Origin: Armatimonadota bacterium
Lineage (GTDB): Bacteria > Armatimonadota > Fimbriimonadia > Fimbriimonadales > Fimbriimonadaceae
Direction of reading: 5' to 3'
Assembly (NCBI GenBank): GCA_037138755.1
Contig: JBAXHT010000001.1
Span: forward strand, 405,805-469,804
DNA length: 64,000 nt
A program made the translations under genes and the position numbers. The number at the start of each line of letters is the position of its first letter. Position 1 is the stretch's first letter. Below, in pieces: positions 36,468 through 48,358 of the stretch. The notes below the pieces were generated by a model. It was not told where the DNA came from, ran no database searches, and saw only the letters and a list, made by a program, of their open reading frames with translations.

Positions 36468-37427
36468 ATGCCAACTCTGCCCCGCATCACCGGAACGTTT
36501 CTCGACGAAATCACTCATGACATCCCGAGTCAGAACTGGACGGAGCGGCACTGGCGGCGCGAATTCGAGCTTTATAGCAAGATCGGTCTCGACACCCTGA
36601 TCATCATTCGGGCCGGTTACAAGAACAAGTGCATCTACCCCTCGCAGGTGATTCCGTCACTGCTTCCGGTTTACGACGACATTGGAGAGATGTTTTTCTC
36701 ATTGGCCGATGAGTTTAATCTGAAGCTATTCTTTGGAACCTACGACAGTGGGTTCTACTGGTGGCGGCGAACTTGGTGGAAGGAAGTCGATCTGAACAAG
36801 GCATTCATCGACGAAGCTTACAACCGATACGGTCATCACAAAAGCTTTGCCGGTTGGTACCTAACACACGAGACGGGGAAGAACGATGCGCACATCATCG
36901 AGATCCACAACCACATCGGCCAGCATTGCAAGTCAAAAGCCGATCTGCCCGTTCTGATCTCGCCTTATCCCCAGGGCGCAAAGCAAAGCGGTGAAAACGC
37001 GCTTGCGCTCGAAGAGAGCTTTGATCACTGGGATCGGGTTTTCGCCGAGACAAACAAATCGTTCGACCTCTGCGCCTTTCAAGACGGTCAGGTGCATTAC
37101 GAAGAACTTCCGAAGTTCATCGAGGGTATCGCCGCTCTCGGCAAGAAGTACGGGATCACCATCTGGTCGAACCTCGAAACCTTTGACCGAGACATGCCCA
37201 TCAAGTTCCCTCCGGCAGATTGGCGCTACCTGCGCTTTAAGCTAGAAACCGCCGCCCAGATCGCAGAAAAGATCATCACGTTTGAGTTCCCACACTTCGT
37301 CTCGCCGTTCAGCTGCTACCCCTCGGCGCATAACCTGTTCGAGCGCTACATGACCTACGAAGGTGCAAAATGGAACCAAGGATTCGACCGAGAAATCCTC
37401 GATTGGGTGAAGTCGCAACGAGACTGA
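36468..37427 (+). CDS. DUF4434 TIM-barrel protein
   Basis: A 319-residue protein with the DUF4434 look: ITGTFLDEITHDIPSQNW, then LIIIRAGYKNK, FGTYDSGFYWW and FAGWYLTHETG. The family is predicted to be a glycoside-hydrolase-like TIM barrel, with Glu residues (YLTHETG; WSNLETFDRD) as possible catalytic groups, but no activity is established. There is no signal peptide, so it is likely cytoplasmic. It is divergent from cutC. Confidence 0.8.
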   Translation: MPTLPRITGTFLDEITHDIPSQNWTERHWRREFELYSKIGLDTLIIIRAGYKNKCIYPSQVIPSLLPVYDDIGEMFFSLADEFNLKLFFGTYDSGFYWWRRTWWKEVDLNKAFIDEAYNRYGHHKSFAGWYLTHETGKNDAHIIEIHNHIGQHCKSKADLPVLISPYPQGAKQSGENALALEESFDHWDRVFAETNKSFDLCAFQDGQVHYEELPKFIEGIAALGKKYGITIWSNLETFDRDMPIKFPPADWRYLRFKLETAAQIAEKIITFEFPHFVSPFSCYPSAHNLFERYMTYEGAKWNQGFDREILDWVKSQRD

Positions 37428-38984: not shown

Positions 38985-39060
38985 GGCTCCGTAGCTCAGG
39001 GGATAGAGCGCCTCCGTCCTAAGGAGGGCGTCGGGGGTTCGAGTCCCTCCGGGGCCGCCA
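38985..39060 (+). tRNA. tRNA-Arg (anticodon CCT)
   Basis: A complete 76-nt cloverleaf. The acceptor arm GGCTCCG pairs with CGGGGCC, the D arm contains GCTCAGGGGATAGAGC, the anticodon stem CCTCC/GGAGG encloses GTCCTAA with anticodon CCT (reads AGG), the T arm contains GGTTCGAGTCC, and CCA is encoded. Its 3' half from the anticodon loop (39016) to CCA (39060) recurs three times downstream, marking it as an insertion target. Confidence 0.97.
39016..39060 (+). repeat. Attachment-site core in the tRNA-Arg gene (copy 1)
   Basis: This 45-bp segment, from the anticodon loop GTCCTAA to the terminal CCA, is the reference for the downstream copies at 40731-40775, 45509-45553 and 48314-48358. Tyrosine recombinases commonly use the anticodon loop or T loop of tRNA genes as crossover sites, so it is read as the chromosomal attachment core. 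Confidence 0.8.
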
Positions 39061-39264
39061 GGGTTTTGATTGTCCGATCCAGAGACAGAGTCTGCAATTT
39101 TTTCCATAGATGCAGTTGACACCATCGGGAGGTGAGGTCAGGTTCTTCTGGTAATCGGAAATGGTTCTGGCAGAGTTTGATGAATATTGCAGGATTTTGA
39201 GGCATCGTCAACCTGCGCCAAGCACTCGTTTTGCCATAAACAAAACAAAACTGCGTTCTCTAGG

Positions 39265-39298
39265 TTGACAAACACTCGATACAGCAGCCTTATATAGT
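39265..39298 (+). promoter_or_regulatory. Promoter candidate of cassette 1
   Basis: TTGACA at 39265-39270 and TATATAGT at 39291-39298 form sigma-70-like boxes with a spacer of about 20 nt, slightly long. The start site would fall just inside the annotated GTG, which hints that the downstream GTG at 39323 could be the real start. Confidence 0.4.
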
Positions 39299-40063
39299 GT
39301 GTTTGAAAACTTTTACAAATCGGTGTGGGAATCACTTGAGAAGAACGAGAAGATCAAGTGGCTACTTCGGCAACACGGAGATGACTTTGACTCGCATGTT
39401 AGCAACGAGCTTCTCGGACGCGGTCAAACAGTTTGCGATACTGCTCTTCTAGGTCAACTCTATGCGTACCGTTATGCCCCAATGCATTTCTTTGCGCTGA
39501 GAAAGGTTCTCCCCTGCATGAAATGCGAGACTAGGTTGATCGACTTTGGAACGGGGCCTGGAACCGCATTGTTAGCGATTGCAGACAAAACAAACCAGAT
39601 AATCCATCACGTTGGACTGGAGATTGCCGAGGGAATGCGACTTGTTTGCGAAGATGCGATAACTCTTCTCGCAAGTCATATCGGAGAAAGCGTTTCTCAC
39701 GCACTCCCTGGAAAAGCATTCTGGGAAGACGCAGAAGGCTCATCACCAGAGCAACAGAGGGTCTTTATGTTCTCATACTTTTTCGGTCAAGATCTCAACG
39801 CCTCATTTGTTCAGGCAGTAGCAAGAACGATAAAATCCATCAAAAGAACAAACATGACACTTATATACACAAACCCCGTCGGACCGTATGCGAGTTGGAT
39901 GCCTAACAATGATATTCATCACTGGTATCGCCGGTTCTGTGAAGTCCTAGGTCATGAACCGAAGATTAGAACGACATCATACTCTTATGAAGCACTCTCG
40001 AATCTTGCCAAGCGAACCAAGAGAAGAGGCGAATGTGCGTATGAAGTCTGGAGTCTAACTTGA
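39299..40063 (+). CDS. SAM-dependent methyltransferase, Rsm22-like
   Basis: A 254-residue protein (GTG start; GTG 39323 is an alternative). Residues ~50-110 read YAYRYAPMHFFALRKVL, then RLIDFGTGPGTALLAIAD, the SAM-binding motif I. The Tyr/Arg-rich helix before that motif resembles the Rsm22 family of ribosome-associated methyltransferases. The 4-nt overlap with the AlkB-like gene shows coupled translation. In eukaryotic ALKBH8 an AlkB domain and a methyltransferase act together on tRNA wobble uridine, so an RNA-modification role is plausible but inferred. Codon use is AT-richer than neighbours. Confidence 0.65.
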   Translation: MFENFYKSVWESLEKNEKIKWLLRQHGDDFDSHVSNELLGRGQTVCDTALLGQLYAYRYAPMHFFALRKVLPCMKCETRLIDFGTGPGTALLAIADKTNQIIHHVGLEIAEGMRLVCEDAITLLASHIGESVSHALPGKAFWEDAEGSSPEQQRVFMFSYFFGQDLNASFVQAVARTIKSIKRTNMTLIYTNPVGPYASWMPNNDIHHWYRRFCEVLGHEPKIRTTSYSYEALSNLAKRTKRRGECAYEVWSLT

Positions 40064-40647
40064 GTCTTTTCGAATCGAAGGGTACAGCGCCAGTCGGATT
40101 ACAGATAATCAATCAGTTCCTATCATTATCGGAAGCCATGGTTGTTCTTGAGAAAATAGACTCTAATCTTTGGCTTTCCGATTTATCCCGAAGGGTTCAG
40201 CATTATGGATGGCGTTATGACTACCGGACAAGGAAATTGCATCCAGATTCTTATCTCGGACCACTTCCGGATTTTCTCTCAGGTCTTTGCCAACGAATCA
40301 AGCAAGAGCAATTGATGGAGGTTGTTCCGGATCAGGTGATCGTCAACGAATACTTGCCTGGTCAAGGGATTGCGCCTCACATCGATTGTGAGCCTTGCTT
40401 TGGTCCCGAGATTGCGACGATCTCGCTAGGTGACGAGTATCCGATGAATTTTCGGCACACGATCACAAACGAAGAGTTTCAACTGTTTCTTCCCGTCGGG
40501 TCGATCTGTGTTCTAAGTGGAGAGTCGCGATACTTGTGGACACATGAGATTGCGAAGCGCAAAAGCGATTTACTTCCAGGTGGTGGTCGGAAAGCTAGAT
40601 TGCGTCGAGTCTCAGTAACCTTTCGCTCTGTGTTGGTCTCTCTCTAA
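40060..40647 (+). CDS. AlkB-family 2-oxoglutarate/Fe(II) dioxygenase, ALKBH8-like
   Basis: A 195-residue oxygenase. Fe ligands are H107 and D109 in GIAPHID and H162 in SRYLWTHEI; the 2-oxoglutarate-binding Arg lies in the final RRVSVTFR. The strings EYLPGQGIAPHID, ATISLG and SGESRYLWTHEIAKRK are much closer to the ALKBH8 oxygenase domain than to E. coli AlkB, pointing to an RNA (tRNA) rather than DNA-repair substrate. This is an inference from motif similarity. It pairs with the upstream methyltransferase. Confidence 0.85.
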   Translation: MSLFESKGTAPVGLQIINQFLSLSEAMVVLEKIDSNLWLSDLSRRVQHYGWRYDYRTRKLHPDSYLGPLPDFLSGLCQRIKQEQLMEVVPDQVIVNEYLPGQGIAPHIDCEPCFGPEIATISLGDEYPMNFRHTITNEEFQLFLPVGSICVLSGESRYLWTHEIAKRKSDLLPGGGRKARLRRVSVTFRSVLVSL

Positions 40648-40671
40648 GTCTCTCAGTTAGGGTGGATTTTG

Positions 40672-40696
40672 GGAGACATCCAGAGACGTCCGTAGA
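40672..40696 (+). repeat. GAGAC-core direct repeats and GTAGA motif before copy 2
   Basis: GGAGACATCC (40672-40681) is followed directly by AGAGACGTCC (40682-40691) and GTAGA (40692-40696). GTAGA starts exactly 39 nt before the 45-bp tRNA-derived copy. An inverted AAGTCTCTCA lies at 40646-40655. The arrangement recurs at the other cassette ends and may be recombinase or accessory-protein binding sites. Confidence 0.55.
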
Positions 40697-40730
40697 TTCA
40701 AAATCGAGTTTTTTTACCCAACTTATTTCA

Positions 40731-40775
40731 GTCCTAAGGAGGGCGTCGGAGGTTCGAGTCCCTCCGGGGCCGCCA
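40731..40775 (+). repeat. tRNA-Arg 3'-half copy 2 (attachment-site repeat)
   Basis: 45 bp matching the tRNA from GTCCTAA to CCA with a single difference (44/45; GTCGGAGG instead of GTCGGGGG). The 5' half of the tRNA is absent, so it cannot be a functional tRNA. It marks the junction between cassette 1 and cassette 2. Confidence 0.85.
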
Positions 40776-40849
40776 GGGTTCTCAGCCAGAAAAGGTAGTC
40801 TTTCACTTCGGATTAGTCCTGATGGAACCCTGTTGTGGAAGGGGCGTAC

Positions 40850-40855
40850 TAAGTT
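40850..40855 (+). promoter_or_regulatory. -10-like hexamer TAAGTT of cassette 2
   Basis: TAAGTT is followed by ATTAGG (6 nt) and the ATG at 40862, the same spacing as other leaderless starts in the window. It lies 75 nt inside the cassette, so the cassette carries its own promoter. Confidence 0.4.
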
Positions 40856-40861
40856 ATTAGG

Positions 40862-41359
40862 ATGCGAGACTTGAAGCTCATCAAGCGATGTTTGATTCTT
40901 CTTGCACTGGTTTGGGCTCAGATCCCTGCCAGTGTGCTCGCTCAGCTTTGCCAGCCAACAGTCACTTGCGCGATGCCATGCTGTGTGGCCAAAGCGATTC
41001 ATCCTACGGCTAAAGCGAAGCCCGTTTGTGCGATGTGTCCTGATGAGGGTGCCACTGATTCTAAAGATTCGAGCAAATCCCACGAGACTGAGATTTCATC
41101 AAAATCCACCTCAGAATCGTGCCCTTGCAAAATCGCACCTCGAACCTATCCCGCAGAGCATTCCTTTACTGCTTGTTTCACAAACGCTTCAGGCCATGAT
41201 CAGGCGTTTTACGCGTGCACGGACGTAAAGCCGCTCAGGTTTGAACTGGCTATTTTTACGACAATGCGCCCTGGAATCATTGGATCCGATTCGGGTCCGC
41301 CAATTCGAGGACCAAGTTGCGTCTGGCTTGGCCGCGCTCCTCCTACTGCAGTTGCTTAA
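40862..41359 (+). CDS. Exported Cys-rich small protein, possible metal binder
   Basis: A 165-residue protein with a signal peptide (KRCLILLALVWAQIPASVLA). The mature region is rich in Cys, arranged as CAMPCC, CAMC and CPC, with a Ser/Lys/Glu-rich linker between. Such spacing suits soft-metal binding (copper or mercury). No family is recognised. It heads the metal-handling operon of cassette 2, 71 nt before the next gene. Confidence 0.6.
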   Translation: MRDLKLIKRCLILLALVWAQIPASVLAQLCQPTVTCAMPCCVAKAIHPTAKAKPVCAMCPDEGATDSKDSSKSHETEISSKSTSESCPCKIAPRTYPAEHSFTACFTNASGHDQAFYACTDVKPLRFELAIFTTMRPGIIGSDSGPPIRGPSCVWLGRAPPTAVA

Positions 41360-41430
41360 TCTAGCTGTGCTCCATCACTGAGCCGGTCACTTTGCGTCTC
41401 ATCGTACTTATCAACCCATTAGGAAAACAC

Positions 41431-42648
41431 ATGTTAACAACCATCGCTCTATCGGCGGTTTTGATCGGACGGGCCCCCTCACTCTTGGGCCCTGCCGTTG
41501 CAGAATCGACCTCATTCAATTCGATTCACACTGGATTCACGCCACAGAATTTAGCTACTCAAACGAACAAGGTCACGTTCGGCAAGTATCAAGCCGAACT
41601 CCGTATTCCAGAAGGCGGGCTCTTCGCTGGAGAGGAGCTCGATGTTGAGTTTCGGGTGACCGATACCACTCAGAAGGATGCCGTAGAAGAAGGCTTCAAA
41701 GGCGTGGGAGCGATCGAAGCAACCGCAGTGATGACGATGCCGAGCATGATGGGAATGCCAGAGGTGAGACCCAAAGTTCATCGTGAGGGAGTGCCGGGTG
41801 ACTACGGCATGGAACTGTACTTCGCCCACGGCGGAGAGTACAAGATCGACCTGGCTCTGAACATTCCGGGAGAGGGTGTGAAGAACATCTCGTTTTTGGT
41901 AGATGTCAAAGATGAAAAGCCAGCGACCATCAAAGCTCAGCCGTACAAACTGAAAGTCGTTAACTGGCCGAAAAATGCCAATGCTGGAGTAAGAACCAAC
42001 CTTAAATTGCAAGTCATAGACTCAAAGACCGGCGCTGTACAAACGTCGTTTGACGAAGCCCATACGAAGCTCTTTCACCTGCTTATCGCTAGTAAGGATT
42101 TGAACTGGTTCGTACACGAACACCCGGTCATGGATGCCAAGGGCACCTGGTCCGTTCCGATCACGTTCCCAGCTGGGACAAAGTATTGGGTCTACGGCGA
42201 CGTCGCTCCGACGGGCAAAGGCTCTCGTGTGCTCATCACTTCCGTCCAAGTTCAAGGTGCTAAGCCTGCTTGGAACACGAAGTTGAGCCTCAGTCGAACT
42301 GGCTCGGATGGTGGTCTAAAGGGACTCCTCTCTACGTTGGAGCCTATTGAAACTGGCCGCAAGGCGACCCTCCAAGTGAAGCTCTTTGACACTAAAACCG
42401 GGATTCCGGCTGGAAATACCGTTAAATGGCTGGGAGCCGCGGGTCATATGATGATCTTTCACAAAGATGGTCAAACCGTTGTCCACAGCCACCCAGCCGA
42501 AGATGCTGAGAATGAGGCGTTGGTAAAACGTGGCATTGTGCGGTTTACCGGGAGATTCCCGAAGGTCGGAACTTATAAAGTCTACGCCCAGTTTGACTGG
42601 AACGGAAAAGTCCGAACTCTGCCTTTTGCCGTCGAGGTCACAGAATGA
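41431..42648 (+). CDS. Exported protein with duplicated H-D-H-H domain (YtkA/FixH-like), metal resistance candidate
   Basis: A 405-residue protein. The ATG at 41431 has AGGA 6-7 nt upstream and starts a signal peptide (MLTTIALSAVLIG); an earlier TTG at 41392 is less likely. Residues ~45-150 resemble a YtkA/FixH-like beta domain with MTMPSMMGMP (Met-rich). Two later domains carry the same pattern H-x6-D-x5-H-x-H-P with identical spacing: HLLIASKDLNWFVHEHP from His216 and HMMIFHKDGQTVVHSHP from His339. The His and Met richness suggests copper binding in the periplasm. Its stop overlaps the next start. Confidence 0.7.
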   Translation: MLTTIALSAVLIGRAPSLLGPAVAESTSFNSIHTGFTPQNLATQTNKVTFGKYQAELRIPEGGLFAGEELDVEFRVTDTTQKDAVEEGFKGVGAIEATAVMTMPSMMGMPEVRPKVHREGVPGDYGMELYFAHGGEYKIDLALNIPGEGVKNISFLVDVKDEKPATIKAQPYKLKVVNWPKNANAGVRTNLKLQVIDSKTGAVQTSFDEAHTKLFHLLIASKDLNWFVHEHPVMDAKGTWSVPITFPAGTKYWVYGDVAPTGKGSRVLITSVQVQGAKPAWNTKLSLSRTGSDGGLKGLLSTLEPIETGRKATLQVKLFDTKTGIPAGNTVKWLGAAGHMMIFHKDGQTVVHSHPAEDAENEALVKRGIVRFTGRFPKVGTYKVYAQFDWNGKVRTLPFAVEVTE

Positions 42649-43109
42649 AACGAATCCTAGTTGCCCTTCTTTTCATGATTTCCGCTTTTGCATTCTCTCA
42701 CGAGGGCGATTGTCCACACTGCAAGATGCCATTGCTCCAAAACACAAAGGATCAGGACAACGAGGTTGTGGTCAAGTTTGGGAACAAGCGGATTGAGTAC
42801 CGATGTGTCTATTGCGTTTTCAAAGACCAGAAGCGATACAAGAGCGACCTGATTGTTTACGCTCCCGGCGAAAAAGTCGGTGAGCCGATTGTTCTCAAGC
42901 GAACAGACGGCAAATGGTCGGCTCCAGAAGGCGCGGTTTTTCTGAATACATTCAAGAAGCACTCCGAATGCGCCGAGCTCTCGCGGGCGTTTAGCTCTAA
43001 AGCAGCCTTCGAAAAGTATGTTGCGGATAAGAAAGTTGTCGACGCAAAACCACTATCGCTCACCGAGTTCATTGATCTGGTGATGAAGCCAGTTGGAACT
43101 GACAAATGA
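42645..43109 (+). CDS. NosL-like exported metal-binding protein
   Basis: A 154-residue protein with a signal peptide (RILVALLFMISAFAFS) followed by two CxxC pairs: C23-P-H-C26 and C54-V-Y-C57. The C-terminal part (HSECAELSRAFSSKAAFEKY) matches the C-terminal domain of the next gene's product (HPNCSVWSRVFTSRSAFDKF), so the two are paralogous. NosL proteins are copper-binding periplasmic or lipoprotein chaperones; the resemblance here is moderate. Coupled by 4-nt overlaps on both sides. Confidence 0.65.
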   Translation: MKRILVALLFMISAFAFSHEGDCPHCKMPLLQNTKDQDNEVVVKFGNKRIEYRCVYCVFKDQKRYKSDLIVYAPGEKVGEPIVLKRTDGKWSAPEGAVFLNTFKKHSECAELSRAFSSKAAFEKYVADKKVVDAKPLSLTEFIDLVMKPVGTDK

Positions 43110-44605
43110 GCGTCACGGCCCTTCTTTTGGGCGCGAGCCTTCTCGCCCAGGAGACTCCTCGATTGCAATCGGAGATGCCTGTACCTCCGAAAAATCTGCC
43201 TCGCTGGCTCGACGGTCGCGGGGCGGATCACTTGTTTTATCGGACTGCTCCGTACAACTGGGCGATCAATCGGATCCCGGATTTTGCGAAGGACATGTTT
43301 GCCACGGGCGTTGGCCACGCCATGGCCTATGAAGCACTTGTTACGGGAAAACAACGAGAGCTGGAAGGCAAGACATTTGCGACGATCGACTACGTTCTGA
43401 GGCATCCGCCCTCAAAGCCAGTTGATGAGGCGGCGATCTCTCCGCGATTTGTTCAGAAGTTTGGCTACTTGGAGAAAGTATTTGACTGGGCGCACACACT
43501 GCACTTTCAGACCATCGATGTTTTCATGCACCCTGGCTGGACCGAAGCCCAGAAGGAAGCCGCGATCGAGCGGCTTTGGACGTTTTATTCGGCTGAGCCC
43601 TATGCTATCTCGGGTCTTCCGATGAACATGGAGTACTTGGATAGCTTCCCGTACAGCGGAGCATTTCGTCAGAACTATCCGAAGGTCAACGGTCTCTTCT
43701 GGGGTTACCACTGGCTCCAGACCGTGAACTACGACATGCTTTTCCGGGTTCCTGTAAGCGACCAAAAGCCACAGTACAGCTTGGTCGGCCAGAGATATCA
43801 CGAAACCGAGCTCTACAAAACGGATCGCGATTTCATGCCGATGACGGCGGAGATGAGCCCACGATTTGCTCGTCGCTTTCCTCAGATTGCCAACGCTTTT
43901 GACAATCTGCACATGCTTCACGACAACGTGAACGACATTCTTGCCCAGACCAATCTGTCGGATGCCGAGAAGGAGACACAGGTGAAGATCGCGATCTACC
44001 GCGTTCTGGATTCGACGCACAAAGGCGAAGAACCAGGCGACGGAGAACCAAGAACCGTGCATGACCACCGATTTCCAAATGGGATGCCCGGCATGGGAAT
44101 GATGGTGGGCAGTGATGAAGACACTATGTACATGTCCGGTATGGGCTGGATGGACATGAGCGGGTGCGCCCACTGCTCGATCTCCCTTCCTGAAGAGGGT
44201 CCGTGGGGAGCAACGGTTTCTGCCGAAGGCTGGACAATGACCGTGCGGTGCATGATGTGCGCTCGGGATATGGCCGCCGAGACTCCGGGGCGTGCCATTA
44301 TTAGGGCTGCCACCGAAGACGAGAATCGTCTCCTTGTGATGATCTCGGATGAAGAAGGAAACTGGAGCTCGAATATCAAGGGAATCGTGTTCTTGGAGGT
44401 CTTTGGCGAGCACCCGAACTGCTCGGTGTGGTCAAGGGTGTTCACCTCTCGATCTGCCTTCGACAAGTTTGTCGCAACCGTCCCCGAACTCAAAGGAGCG
44501 AAAGCACTGAGCCTCGAGGAGTGGGCCAAACTGAACCACGGAACTCCTGACACTTACACGAAGATTAACAAGCCAAACCCCTACCGAAAGGGTGGTGCAA
44601 AGTGA
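43106..44605 (+). CDS. Large exported protein with C-terminal NosL-like domain
   Basis: A 499-residue protein with a short signal-like start (SVTALLLGASLLAQ). Residues ~20-330 form a helical region with many Trp, Tyr and His that I do not recognise. A Met-rich segment (NGMPGMGMMVGSDEDTMYMS, residues ~325-345) follows. The C-terminal ~140 residues carry GCAHCS and RCMMCARDM (two CxxC pairs) and match the preceding 154-residue protein. The Met and Cys clusters suggest copper capture. It overlaps both neighbours by 4 nt. Confidence 0.6.
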   Translation: MSVTALLLGASLLAQETPRLQSEMPVPPKNLPRWLDGRGADHLFYRTAPYNWAINRIPDFAKDMFATGVGHAMAYEALVTGKQRELEGKTFATIDYVLRHPPSKPVDEAAISPRFVQKFGYLEKVFDWAHTLHFQTIDVFMHPGWTEAQKEAAIERLWTFYSAEPYAISGLPMNMEYLDSFPYSGAFRQNYPKVNGLFWGYHWLQTVNYDMLFRVPVSDQKPQYSLVGQRYHETELYKTDRDFMPMTAEMSPRFARRFPQIANAFDNLHMLHDNVNDILAQTNLSDAEKETQVKIAIYRVLDSTHKGEEPGDGEPRTVHDHRFPNGMPGMGMMVGSDEDTMYMSGMGWMDMSGCAHCSISLPEEGPWGATVSAEGWTMTVRCMMCARDMAAETPGRAIIRAATEDENRLLVMISDEEGNWSSNIKGIVFLEVFGEHPNCSVWSRVFTSRSAFDKFVATVPELKGAKALSLEEWAKLNHGTPDTYTKINKPNPYRKGGAK

Positions 44606-45369
44606 AGCACATTGGACCTGGAATCTGCGTTAGCCTTCTCGGTTCTGCAACGGCCTTTGGGAGCGATCATAACAATATCGACAAGGAGCGTCCGCTGCGA
44701 TTCGATGACGCTTACTCGATTGCTTATCGTTCGTTCGAGTTTCAGAGTGGATTCAGGCTAGACACGTTCAACCGGGAAAGACCCGTCTATAACTTCAGAA
44801 CGGAGGTTCAGTATGGCTTCGCCAAAAACAAGGACTTTTCCATCGGACTGGAGCCGTTTGTGAGTAATCAAAGTGGAAAGCTCATCGGGAACGTGCTGGA
44901 GCTGAGCTACTTCGAAGGAGTTTCAAGGGAGATTGGGAACAACCCAGCCTTTGGATATCGAATCGACGCGGGTCTGCCGGTCTCGGGTGGGAATGGAACC
45001 GAGTTTCGAGTGCGAGGAATTCTAACAAAAACTGTGAGCCACTACGACAGGCTCCACCTAAACGTCGATTTCTACAACTCGACATCGGGCTTAAGCAGTG
45101 AGCGATCAAAGCGGATAGGATTCATCCTTGGTTATTCCAATCCGGTGGGATATCCGACAAGTTTTGACCAAACTTTTTTGGCAGAGCTTGGCTTTGAGCA
45201 GGGGCGGCTGACCGGCTCAGGATATAACAGTTGGGTCGGATTGGGAATCCGAAGGCAACTCTCGGCGACCGGGGTTCTCGACCTTGGGGTTCAGCTTGAC
45301 CTGCAAGGAGCTGGTTCAGAGCCACTCTCACCGTTTCGGCTTTCGGTTGGTTACTCGAAGAGCTTCTGA
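44602..45369 (+). CDS. Outer-membrane beta-barrel candidate of the metal operon
   Basis: A 255-residue protein with a signal-like start (GPGICVSLLGSATAFG). Its body is made of alternating-hydrophobicity strands (FRTEVQYGFAKNKDFSIGLE; RIGFILGYSNPVGYP) and it ends in Phe (LSVGYSKSF), as outer-membrane proteins do. It overlaps the upstream gene by 4 nt, so it is likely the outer-membrane partner of the operon, similar in position to CopB in copper systems. Sequence relation to CopB is not evident. Confidence 0.65.
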   Translation: MKHIGPGICVSLLGSATAFGSDHNNIDKERPLRFDDAYSIAYRSFEFQSGFRLDTFNRERPVYNFRTEVQYGFAKNKDFSIGLEPFVSNQSGKLIGNVLELSYFEGVSREIGNNPAFGYRIDAGLPVSGGNGTEFRVRGILTKTVSHYDRLHLNVDFYNSTSGLSSERSKRIGFILGYSNPVGYPTSFDQTFLAELGFEQGRLTGSGYNSWVGLGIRRQLSATGVLDLGVQLDLQGAGSEPLSPFRLSVGYSKSF

Positions 45370-45373
45370 AATA

Positions 45374-45474
45374 TGAGAGACTGCTATCAAGCAAGCTCCA
45401 AGTTCACATTGAGAGACTTGTCGGAAGTTGCTTCGCAAGGGGCCAGGTCTCTCAATAGCCAGCGCGTCGGTAGA
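45374..45474 (+). repeat. GAGAC-core repeats and GTAGA motif before copy 3
   Basis: TGAGAGACT occurs at 45374-45382 and 45410-45418, and its inverse GGTCTCTCA at 45446-45454. GTAGATTCAAA starts at 45470, exactly 39 nt before the tRNA-derived copy and nearly identical to the GTAGATTCAAA before copy 2. Confidence 0.55.
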
Positions 45475-45508
45475 TTCAAATCAGAATTTTTGAACCTATT
45501 TTTCTTCA

Positions 45509-45553
45509 GTCCTATGGAGGGCGTCAGGGGTTCGAGTCCCTCCGGGGCCGCCA
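45509..45553 (+). repeat. tRNA-Arg 3'-half copy 3 (attachment-site repeat)
   Basis: 45 bp matching the tRNA 3' half at 43 of 45 positions (GTCCTATGG for GTCCTAAGG; GTCAGG for GTCGGG). The 5' half is missing. It separates cassette 2 from cassette 3. Confidence 0.85.
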
Positions 45554-45563
45554 AGATTTGAAC

Positions 45564-48077
45564 TTAGCGTGGTTTCGAAACAGGGGTCATAGTCGCCATC
45601 TGCATTCGAAAGAACCAATGTTTAGCAAGCTCGGCACACAAAACGTAGGAAGCCACAATGCCCAGCAATCCGCCAATCATCGGCACGGGGAGCTGAGTGA
45701 ATCCGAGGGAAATCGACAGAGCTGTAAACGGAAGGACAAGCACCGCAATGCAAGTAGCAATCGTGGTGAAGAGCAAAGCAATTGAAGGACGGGACTGGCC
45801 CAGCCAGCGCCGAGATCGAAAAACGAGCACGATCAAACTCGCAGAGATGACGGATTCCGTAAACCATGCCGTTCGAAAGACTTCTGGAGTGGTCTTGAGC
45901 CAAATCAACAATCCGAAAGTTGCAAAATCGAAGACCGAGCTGAGTAAGCCGAAAATTAGCATAAACCTTCGCAAAAATCCTAAATCCCACTTCTGCCGTT
46001 GCTGAAGCACCTCATCGTCCACGTTATCGCCCGCAATGGTCATTTCTGGGAGGTCTGTCAGAAGGTTAGTCAGAAGCACTTGCTTCGCGAGAAGTGGTAG
46101 GAACGGAATCAGAAGGCTTGCTCCGGCAAGACTGAACATGTTTCCGAAGTTCGCACTGGTTGCCATGAAGATGTACTTCATCGTGTTCGAAAACGTTCTC
46201 CGACCCTCCAGTACAGCACCGACGAGAACCCCAATATCTGGCTTCAACATAACGAAGTCGGCTGCTTCTTTGGCTACATCAGCGGCGTTGGCGACAGAGA
46301 TGCTTACGTCTGCACTGTGAAGGGCTGGACCGTCGTTGACTCCGTCGCCGATGTAACCCACAACAGAACCGCCTCGTTTGAGGGCCAAGATGATACGCTG
46401 CTTCTGACGTGGCTCTATTTCGGCAAAGACAGAGACGTTCTTGGCTCTCACCAGTAGAGCGTCATCTGAGAGTCCATCCAGCTCAGTACCAGTGATGAGT
46501 TGTCTGTTCAGGGCAAGGGTTGTTGCGATATAGGCGGCAACGTGTGCGTTGTCTCCTGTAATCATCTTGAGCTCAATTCCAATATCGGCAAGTCTCTTGA
46601 TCGTAGCAGCACTCTCCGCCCGGAGCGGATCATGGAGCAGGAGCATCCCCTCAAAGGTCATACGTACCTCGCTCATATCAGTCTGTTCAGACTCATTCGC
46701 TAGTTCGCGACTTGCAACACCAAGAACGCGAAAACCTTGTTCACTGAAGGTCTTAAAGCTGGCTTCGATCAAAGGTCGCACATCCGATATCTCAACCATC
46801 CCATTGGCCGTGCGCACCTCAGAGCAACATTCTAAAACTGTGATCAACGCTCCTTTCATGATGAGTGTAAGCGTTGCCTGAGAGCGAACCAAGACACTGA
46901 TTCGTTTTCGCTGGAAATCGTAAGGCGTTTCTCCCAACTTCTCATATCCCTGTTGAACCCCTGGAGATGCACTCTTTCGTAGGGCTTCATCAATTGGATT
47001 CACGTAGCCAGATTCAAAAATTGCGTTCAGCTGACTGAGTTTTAGCACGTTTGGCGAGTCGTTACTCAGTGCATCTACCGCTCGGGCCACTTCGACAGTG
47101 CCTAGAGTGAGAGTCCCAGTTTTATCCGAGCAAAGAACATCCATTGATCCAAAGTTTTCGATGGAGGACAGTCTCTTCACGATCACGCAATCTTTGGACA
47201 TCGCCATTGCGCCACGAGACAAGTTTAAGCTTACAATCGCTGGTAGAAGTTGAGGGGTGAGTCCCACCGCTAAGGCCAGGGAAAACATGAATGACTCAAG
47301 CACCGGCCGGTGGGCAATTAGATTCACCATCAGTACAAAGAGAGTCAAGAAGATCGTCAATTGAATGAGCATCGCTCCGAGCTGCTTGATCCCCTTTTGA
47401 AAGTCTCCCTCAGGACGCTTAAGACTAAGCGCACTTGCGATGCCGCCTAGTCTCGTGGCTGAGCCTACGTTTACGACAAGCATCTTGGCTCTCCCGCTAA
47501 CCACGTTTGTGCCCGCGAAGACCTGGTTTCCTGCGGACTCAACTGACTTTTCGACCGGAAAACTCTCACCAGTCAGACTAGATTGGTCTACGAAGAGTGA
47601 GTCTTCCTCGAGCAGCAAGCCATCACCCGGGATGACTGAGCCTGCCGATAAAATGGCAATATCGCCACGAACAACCGAGGTAAAAGGGACATCTTTTTCA
47701 CAACCATCTCTAAGCACCACGGCTTTTGTTTCCACGAGTTTCATCAGCTCTGCGACTTCGTTACCAGCTCTGAACTCTTGGACAAAACTCAACAAGCCAC
47801 TGGCCACAAGGATAAAGACGATAATGAGGCAGTCCGTCATCTCTCCAAAAAATGCACTCAAGATCGCAGCTACGATAAGCAGGATTTGGATGGGATTGAT
47901 GAATTGCGCAATGAGACCCAAAAAGATTGAATTAGATCTTCCACCGGGGCTGGGCAACTCTGAGTGTCGCCTCTCGGCCTCCTTAGTTGTCAGGCCCTCC
48001 GAAACCGTTTGGCAACGTCTCAACTGCTCCAGCACGTTCAAGGATGAATCTAGATCAGGAATATTGACTTTGTCCAT
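45564..48077 (-). CDS. mgtA: Magnesium-translocating P-type ATPase (MgtA/MgtB family)
   Basis: 837 residues from the ATG at 48077 (TTG 48155 would add 26 residues of unlikely sequence). The actuator domain has SLTGESFPVEK, the phosphorylation site is SDKTGTLT, and the nucleotide and hinge motifs are MKGA and GDGVNDGPALHSAD. The MgtA-specific NPIQ and ANFGNMFS segments and about ten transmembrane helices are present. The pump imports Mg2+ across the inner membrane. It is carried as single cargo in a tRNA-bounded cassette and lies 10 nt inside its boundary. Confidence 0.92.
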   Translation of the reverse strand: MDKVNIPDLDSSLNVLEQLRRCQTVSEGLTTKEAERRHSELPSPGGRSNSIFLGLIAQFINPIQILLIVAAILSAFFGEMTDCLIIVFILVASGLLSFVQEFRAGNEVAELMKLVETKAVVLRDGCEKDVPFTSVVRGDIAILSAGSVIPGDGLLLEEDSLFVDQSSLTGESFPVEKSVESAGNQVFAGTNVVSGRAKMLVVNVGSATRLGGIASALSLKRPEGDFQKGIKQLGAMLIQLTIFLTLFVLMVNLIAHRPVLESFMFSLALAVGLTPQLLPAIVSLNLSRGAMAMSKDCVIVKRLSSIENFGSMDVLCSDKTGTLTLGTVEVARAVDALSNDSPNVLKLSQLNAIFESGYVNPIDEALRKSASPGVQQGYEKLGETPYDFQRKRISVLVRSQATLTLIMKGALITVLECCSEVRTANGMVEISDVRPLIEASFKTFSEQGFRVLGVASRELANESEQTDMSEVRMTFEGMLLLHDPLRAESAATIKRLADIGIELKMITGDNAHVAAYIATTLALNRQLITGTELDGLSDDALLVRAKNVSVFAEIEPRQKQRIILALKRGGSVVGYIGDGVNDGPALHSADVSISVANAADVAKEAADFVMLKPDIGVLVGAVLEGRRTFSNTMKYIFMATSANFGNMFSLAGASLLIPFLPLLAKQVLLTNLLTDLPEMTIAGDNVDDEVLQQRQKWDLGFLRRFMLIFGLLSSVFDFATFGLLIWLKTTPEVFRTAWFTESVISASLIVLVFRSRRWLGQSRPSIALLFTTIATCIAVLVLPFTALSISLGFTQLPVPMIGGLLGIVASYVLCAELAKHWFFRMQMATMTPVSKPR

Positions 48078-48254
48078 TTGGGTAGTAGTCCACCTTAGCA
48101 TCTTTGATTGACTCAAGAGTTCTCCCAAAATGGCCAATAGACGGTTCAAAAACAATTACTAGTCGGATCAAAGCGGGATGATCTAAGCGCTTATCGGCAC
48201 CATCGATCAATGTGGAGACCCGCCGTTTACGGTTTACGAACGCTGAGTATAGAA

Positions 48255-48279
48255 GGAGACGTTCGGAGACGTTCGTAGA
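48255..48279 (+). repeat. Tandem GGAGACGTTC repeats and GTAGA motif before copy 4
   Basis: GGAGACGTTC occurs twice in tandem (48255-48264 and 48265-48274), immediately followed by GTAGA (48275-48279), which starts exactly 39 nt before the tRNA-derived copy. A third GGAGAC lies at 48214-48219. Confidence 0.6.
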
Positions 48280-48313
48280 GCTGAACAGCCGTTTTCAATG
48301 CAGTTTGTCTTCG

Positions 48314-48358
48314 GTTCCAAAGAGGGCGTCGGGGGTTCGAGTCCCTCCGGGGGCGCCA
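48314..48358 (+). repeat. tRNA-Arg 3'-half copy 4 (outermost attachment-site repeat)
   Basis: 45 bp with 41 matches to the tRNA 3' half; differences lie in the anticodon loop (GTTCCAAAG for GTCCTAAGG) and acceptor (GGGGGCGCCA for GGGGCCGCCA). The T-arm block is identical. It closes the array; chromosomal genes resume with the M23 peptidase. Confidence 0.8.

Follow-up and report, generated by a model that had tools for sequence, protein, structure and literature searches.

What process stacked three gene-bearing modules behind a single tRNA gene in this genome of the Fimbriimonadaceae, and from what kind of element do they descend? The window, a 64,000-nucleotide stretch of contig JBAXHT010000001.1, contains an intact tRNA-Arg(CCT) (38985-39060, forward strand) that serves as the integration site. 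The original prediction placed three modules of 1.7, 4.8 and 2.8 kb behind it, each closed by a copy of the tRNA 3' half, and both the layout and the lengths were confirmed. The 45 bp at 39016-39060 recur on the forward strand at 40731-40775 (44 of 45 positions identical), 45509-45553 (43/45) and 48314-48358 (41/45), and elsewhere in the window no position reaches 28 of 45. The proposed search for further copies across the whole 3.27-Mb genome returned only the four sites of the array, against none for a reversed control pattern. At none of the three copies is a 5' half present, element sequence occupying its place. Halves of a tRNA in tandem could also be left by decayed duplications of the whole gene, the outcome named beforehand as contrary to the prediction, or by faulty assembly. 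However, a conserved terminus replaces the 5' half before every copy, contradicting duplication, while an artefact is at odds with the position of the array in the interior of a 2.02-Mb contig and with the recurrence of one module in an independent genome (G024). We consider the probability of either origin to be negligible.

Module 1 (39061-40775, forward strand), the youngest by position, carries a gene for a SAM-methyltransferase-like protein of 254 aa (39299-40063, forward; DFGTGPGT motif, no Pfam match) and one for an AlkB-like 2OG-Fe(II) oxygenase of 195 aa (40060-40647, forward; PF13532, 1.6e-21), followed by the terminus and the core copy. That this pair acts in RNA modification is no more than a guess. 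Module 2 (40776-45553, forward) is a five-gene operon encoding a Cys-rich protein of 165 aa, a YtkA-like protein of 418 aa and proteins of 154, 499 and 255 aa, a cargo that is probably copper-related. Module 3 (45554-48358, forward), the oldest by position, encodes on the reverse strand (45564-48155) an 863-aa Mg2+-translocating P-type ATPase (MgtA-like; TIGR01524, 672.6 bits for a cut-off of 610.75). The modules had been described as integrase-less, and this holds: Pfam and NCBIfam searches of all cargo genes found neither integrase nor conjugation or mobilization genes, searches with the backbone genes of complete elements (see below) found no homologue, and no remnant of an integrase was detectable in the three modules, looser limits included. 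No recombinase lies within the array, no Phage_integrase-family gene adjoins it, and a PADLOC search of the cargo detected no defence genes.

The conserved terminus, of approximately 73 bp, precedes each 3'-half copy and can be aligned between the array modules and those of the congeners G001, G004 and G011. A 39-nt upstream block had been predicted here; it exists but is a portion of this longer unit. The terminus of module 1 (40648-40719, forward) is complete and scores 68.1 bits, that of module 2 (45447-45497, forward) has a 21-bp internal deletion (33.7 bits), and that of module 3 (48249-48301, forward) is decayed, spanning model positions 19-71 (31.5 bits). A sequence-only model of the terminus (R1), built from nine ends, found matches in 20 of 41 related genomes at E<=1, often several per contig, the weakest being at chance level; some weak matches (e.g., G000:C1:795188, E 0.02) were judged to be chance. 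In a phylum sample of 201 genomes, mostly metagenome assemblies as throughout the comparison, strong matches occurred in 12, all of them Fimbriimonadaceae, with none in the sampled genomes outside this family. The regions examined hold 40 strong sites, nine of which are training ends and 31 independent. A tRNA 3' half lies at most 70 bp away in 29 of the 40, and at 11-12 bp in 27 of these 29 (random positions, 2/400). The other strong sites, inspected by eye, mostly adjoin truncated, interrupted or decayed halves with the correct anticodon-loop start bases. The linked halves derive from at least seven tRNAs: Arg(CCT), Leu(GAG), Val(TAC), Val(GAC), Pro(GGG), Thr(GGT) and Arg(CCG).

At the end facing the tRNA, TTTGAACCT (or its reverse complement) stands directly 3' of CCA in complete elements and in many modules, with GTCTCTCAA occurring twice approximately 40-60 bp beyond it. 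These repeats and the distal block have the look of attP arms for a lambda-type integrase. Both ends are intact in several integrase-less modules, namely module 1 of G001, modules 1 and 2 at tRNA-Thr in G005, and those at tRNA-Pro in G012 and tRNA-Arg(CCG) in G021. In modules 1, 2 and 3 of the array the tRNA-side arm is degenerate, TTTGAAC being retained by module 3 alone, and the three are probably relics.

In elements of 28-52 kb closed by the same terminus, a conserved tyrosine recombinase is encoded close to the tRNA. Two such elements reside in the host genome, at tRNA-Leu(GAG) (C1:313631-353616, 40.0 kb) and tRNA-Val(GAC) (C1:1211512-1256180, 44.7 kb), and others at tRNA-Leu in G002 (38.6 kb), tRNA-Val in G003 (41.7 kb) and tRNA-Arg(CCT) in G186 (42.4 kb) and G201 (51.7 kb). 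Their backbone comprises Replic_Relax, a TrwB/TraG-like ATPase, ArdC, a serine recombinase, HTH and Mrr-like proteins. Eight backbone queries (1e-5) found no such gene in the integrase-less modules bearing the family-A terminus; at looser limits an N-terminal remnant of the recombinase appeared in two modules only (G026 and G032), with marginal matches elsewhere. The recombinases near tRNAs are 51-63% identical to L006, and the catalytic R, HxxR (QxxR in two), H and Y positions are kept in 13 of 13 aligned sequences. Among named genomes the family occurs almost only in Fimbriimonadaceae/Armatimonadota assemblies; one further carrier, an assembly labelled as an archaeon, is probably mis-binned, and plasmid or phage records yielded no match. 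The tRNAs nearest to the recombinase genes are Arg(CCT), Val, Leu, Pro and Thr. On the recombinase tree the target label changes 7 times versus 16 with shuffled labels, so that target specificity is partly inherited, yet switching. The 34.6-kb contig JADLGZ010000010.1 has three family recombinase genes (L237, L240 and L243) approximately 11 kb apart, the first beside tRNA-Val(GAC), apparently in tandem elements, and the tRNA-Leu(GAG) array of G003, of approximately 122 kb (L114-L120, C56:223389-345707), combines two integrase-bearing elements with several integrase-less modules.

The modules had been proposed to move in trans, and a genome-wide recombinase search had been suggested. Both full elements of the host have the terminus and an intact recombinase, but their sites are tRNA-Leu(GAG) and tRNA-Val(GAC); among the recombinases of the L006/L007 family in its genome none targets Arg(CCT), and the arms of the modules are degenerate. 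Movement of the modules in trans is plausible as a hypothesis.

The orthologous tRNA in relatives provides additional clues on how the array was assembled. An upstream anchor gene (36468-37427, forward, 319 aa) is 95% identical beside the tRNA in G001 and G024, and the tRNA sites are therefore orthologous. Directly 3' of the tRNA, G024 has the module 2 operon (56-88% aa identity), with its own 3'-half copy at the end, and neither module 1 nor module 3, while G001 has modules of 14.8 and 2.1 kb and none of the three found in the host. This is the opposite of the same modules in the same order, the result that was to count against the original prediction, and it supports site-specific stacking at the tRNA. 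Module 1 lies between the tRNA and module 2 in the host species alone; its position matches what stacking would predict, or else module 1 was lost from G024. In G004 the 3' half of the tRNA itself is strongly different from the three displaced copies downstream, a direct sign that the half has been replaced, in line with its exchange upon insertion. Gene order near the tRNA is not conserved, and for this reason the flanking genes of most congeners did not reveal classical empty sites: the upstream gene is common to G001 and G024 only, and right-flank synteny fails in both, M23/DUF1080 being located elsewhere.

The overall pattern suggests that the array is, in all likelihood, an accretion stack of three old, integrase-less, att-flanked islands, similar to cis-mobilizable elements of the CIME type and belonging to a tRNA-targeting element family of the Fimbriimonadaceae. 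In the mechanism that we put forward, a tyrosine recombinase of the L006/L007 family would bind the repeated arm sites (GTCTCTCAA / GAGAC, and TTTGAACCT beside the core), and the element core would recombine with the anticodon loop of the tRNA, the anticodon stem acting as inverted core sites and the loop as the presumed overlap. The incoming element would provide a new tRNA 3' half and displace the old one. With the old half pushed away, each insertion would fall between the tRNA and the previous module, so that order gives relative age, here from three modules, with module 3 the oldest and module 1 the youngest. Decay grows with distance from the tRNA, in the core (44 > 43 > 41) as in the terminus (68 > 34 > 31.5 bits). 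The integrase-less modules would have lost, or never had, the recombinase and the transfer backbone, retaining ends and cargo; both recombinase specificity and deletion origin are here what we infer. Modules with an integrase remnant show that a deletion route exists, and modules 1 and 3, with no such remnant detectable in either, may have arisen in the same manner.

For module 2 the cargo itself points to an origin. In the closed genome CP021423.1 (Uphvl-Ar1; G186), of another genus, the operon resides in the distal part of the 42.4-kb element at tRNA-Arg(CCT), in the same orientation and with 61-78% aa identity for four of the five genes, accompanied by a metal-sensing repressor and a heavy-metal ATPase; it is also found inside the complete element of G201. 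The metal genes beside these homologues make copper handling the likely role of module 2, and the presence of its cargo inside a complete element makes deletion from such an element its likely source; module 2 thus probably derives from a full element with the same copper-type cargo. Behind the G186 element lies an integrase-less module of 18.9 kb, which encodes an MFS transporter and a molybdopterin oxidoreductase that is probably a nitrate reductase and also carries molybdenum-cofactor genes.

An alternative scenario would make the integrase-less modules independent satellites, stable cargo-only cassettes that complete elements, through their recombinases, would routinely excise and insert in trans, a single terminus being used for many tRNAs. 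The clean divide between integrase-bearing elements of 28-52 kb and backbone-free modules favors it, as do the modules with both ends intact listed above and the nitrate module, whose borders are identical in G186 and G201 (86-88% nt). The latter may nevertheless be vertically inherited, since it occupies the same site at 86-90% nt, like its flanks. Also in its favor, the methyltransferase and AlkB pair forms a 2.7-kb terminus-flanked cassette at tRNA-Pro(GGG) in G256, and a pair of this type adjoins tRNA-Ala(TGC) in G012 and G231. However, the cargo in G256 is inverted relative to the tRNA when compared with the host, indicating re-packaging rather than simple re-insertion, and the three host modules are without good tRNA-side arms. 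We find this scenario possible, at somewhat below even chances. Its extension to a family-wide system, in which a terminus with interchangeable tRNA cores lets several related recombinases load integrase-less cassettes in trans, is to us equally tentative; if true, each tRNA would be an ordered, growing archive of acquired functions.

The distribution of these cargoes offers some further observations. All four full-length methyltransferase and AlkB pairs found in the family (window 39299-40647; L276, L277 and L278) lie just 3' of a tRNA gene, the tRNAs being Arg, Ala, Ala and Pro. A six-gene operon with a multicopper oxidase is shared, at 63-94% identity, by G002 (L121:9586-15586) and G003 (L119/L120), two species in which it occupies different tRNA arrays in opposite orientation. 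That a single moving circle carried the cargo of G002/G003 and of G256 was considered and rejected, its orientation being inverted in each, and this inversion argues equally against satellites as one re-inserted circle.

Inverted cargo, near-identical repeats and a metal-efflux block whose order differs between G186 and G201 would also suit homologous recombination between repeated tRNA halves or termini, shuffling cargo independently of recombinase action. Yet this explains neither the anticodon-loop start of every copy nor the conserved arm architecture and linked recombinase, and no homology is available for core switching between tRNAs; we therefore deem it unlikely. Returning to accretion, the cargo of module 2 is also carried by a complete element that another genus has at this tRNA, so that decay of full elements along the CIME route is no less likely than movement as independent satellites.

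Other elements share this target. The tRNA-Arg(CCT) island of G186 contains a second, divergent but intact tRNA-Arg(CCT) (CP021423.1:1679957-1680032; L260) where the backbone meets the copper cargo; it may be a spare target gene. Tiny integrase-less modules at tRNA-Arg(CCT) bear a second type of terminus (GGCAGACACACCGATATTAGG...TTTAGGTTCAAA), for which no linked recombinase was identified (L034:1797-13052 in G004, L035/L036 in G008 and L040 in G005). In G011 a different tyrosine recombinase of 424 aa (L037:6722-7405) directly precedes a tRNA-Arg(CCT) half, in an element with AAGAACCCC repeats at both ends; unrelated integrases thus converge on this tRNA.

The literature searched holds no account of elements of this kind in Armatimonadota. 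As a simple marker, the 73-bp terminus finds recombinase-free islands that integrase-based methods overlook, and a common terminus with switched cores makes target change of tRNA-specific recombinases directly testable. The arrays, in which nitrate reduction, copper handling and AlkB-type genes travel, record the relative order of gene gain and show how copper, nitrate and repair genes gathered in the Fimbriimonadaceae, little-studied bacteria of soil and water.

Among known systems, integron cassette arrays, with attC sites between cassettes and IntI alongside, differ from the present array, in which 3' halves of a tRNA, each with a terminus, divide the modules and beside which there is no Phage_integrase gene. 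IMEs combine an integrase with a relaxase or coupling protein and lack full transfer machinery; in gene content the complete elements resemble them in their tyrosine integrase, coupling-like protein (T4CP-like), Replic_Relax and anti-restriction gene. The original prediction compared the modules with tycheposons, described in Prochlorococcus as tRNA-bordered cargo islands with nutrient cargo and, in the complete element, a tyrosine recombinase (PMC10872708). The likeness, drawn from the layout as the source presents it, extends to tRNA-bordered islands, the recombinase of complete elements and the nitrate cargo; in contrast, the three modules have no recombinase of their own, and the full elements, which do, add coupling-protein and Replic_Relax genes. 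The same source describes in Ca. Methylopumilus an additive flexible island at tRNA-Lys, with cassettes separated by tRNA 3'-end repeats much as here; there the repeats are 20 bp and a terminus is unreported in the account given, whereas here halves of approximately 45-54 bp accompany the 73-bp terminus (PMC10872708). CIMEs are islands of 1-13 kb at the 3' end of a target gene, with cargo such as metal resistance, which have lost integration and transfer genes by deletion, keep their att sites and accrete in tandem, the most decayed lying farthest from the target (PMC5704250; PMC7563491). The array modules share with them the lack of recombinase and transfer genes, the tandem stacking, the distal decay, metal-type cargo and putative flanking att sites, with the core on both sides and the distal terminus present, although the tRNA-side arms are degenerate. 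They differ in belonging to another phylum and using another recombinase family, in a terminus common to elements for at least seven tRNAs, in arrays of up to approximately 122 kb (G003), and in a deletion origin visible in some modules only. CIME accretion is the closer model, and tycheposons remain a fair comparison; the novelty lies in the group of bacteria that hosts the elements, in their recombinase family, in one terminus used across many tRNAs, and in how large and numerous the arrays are.
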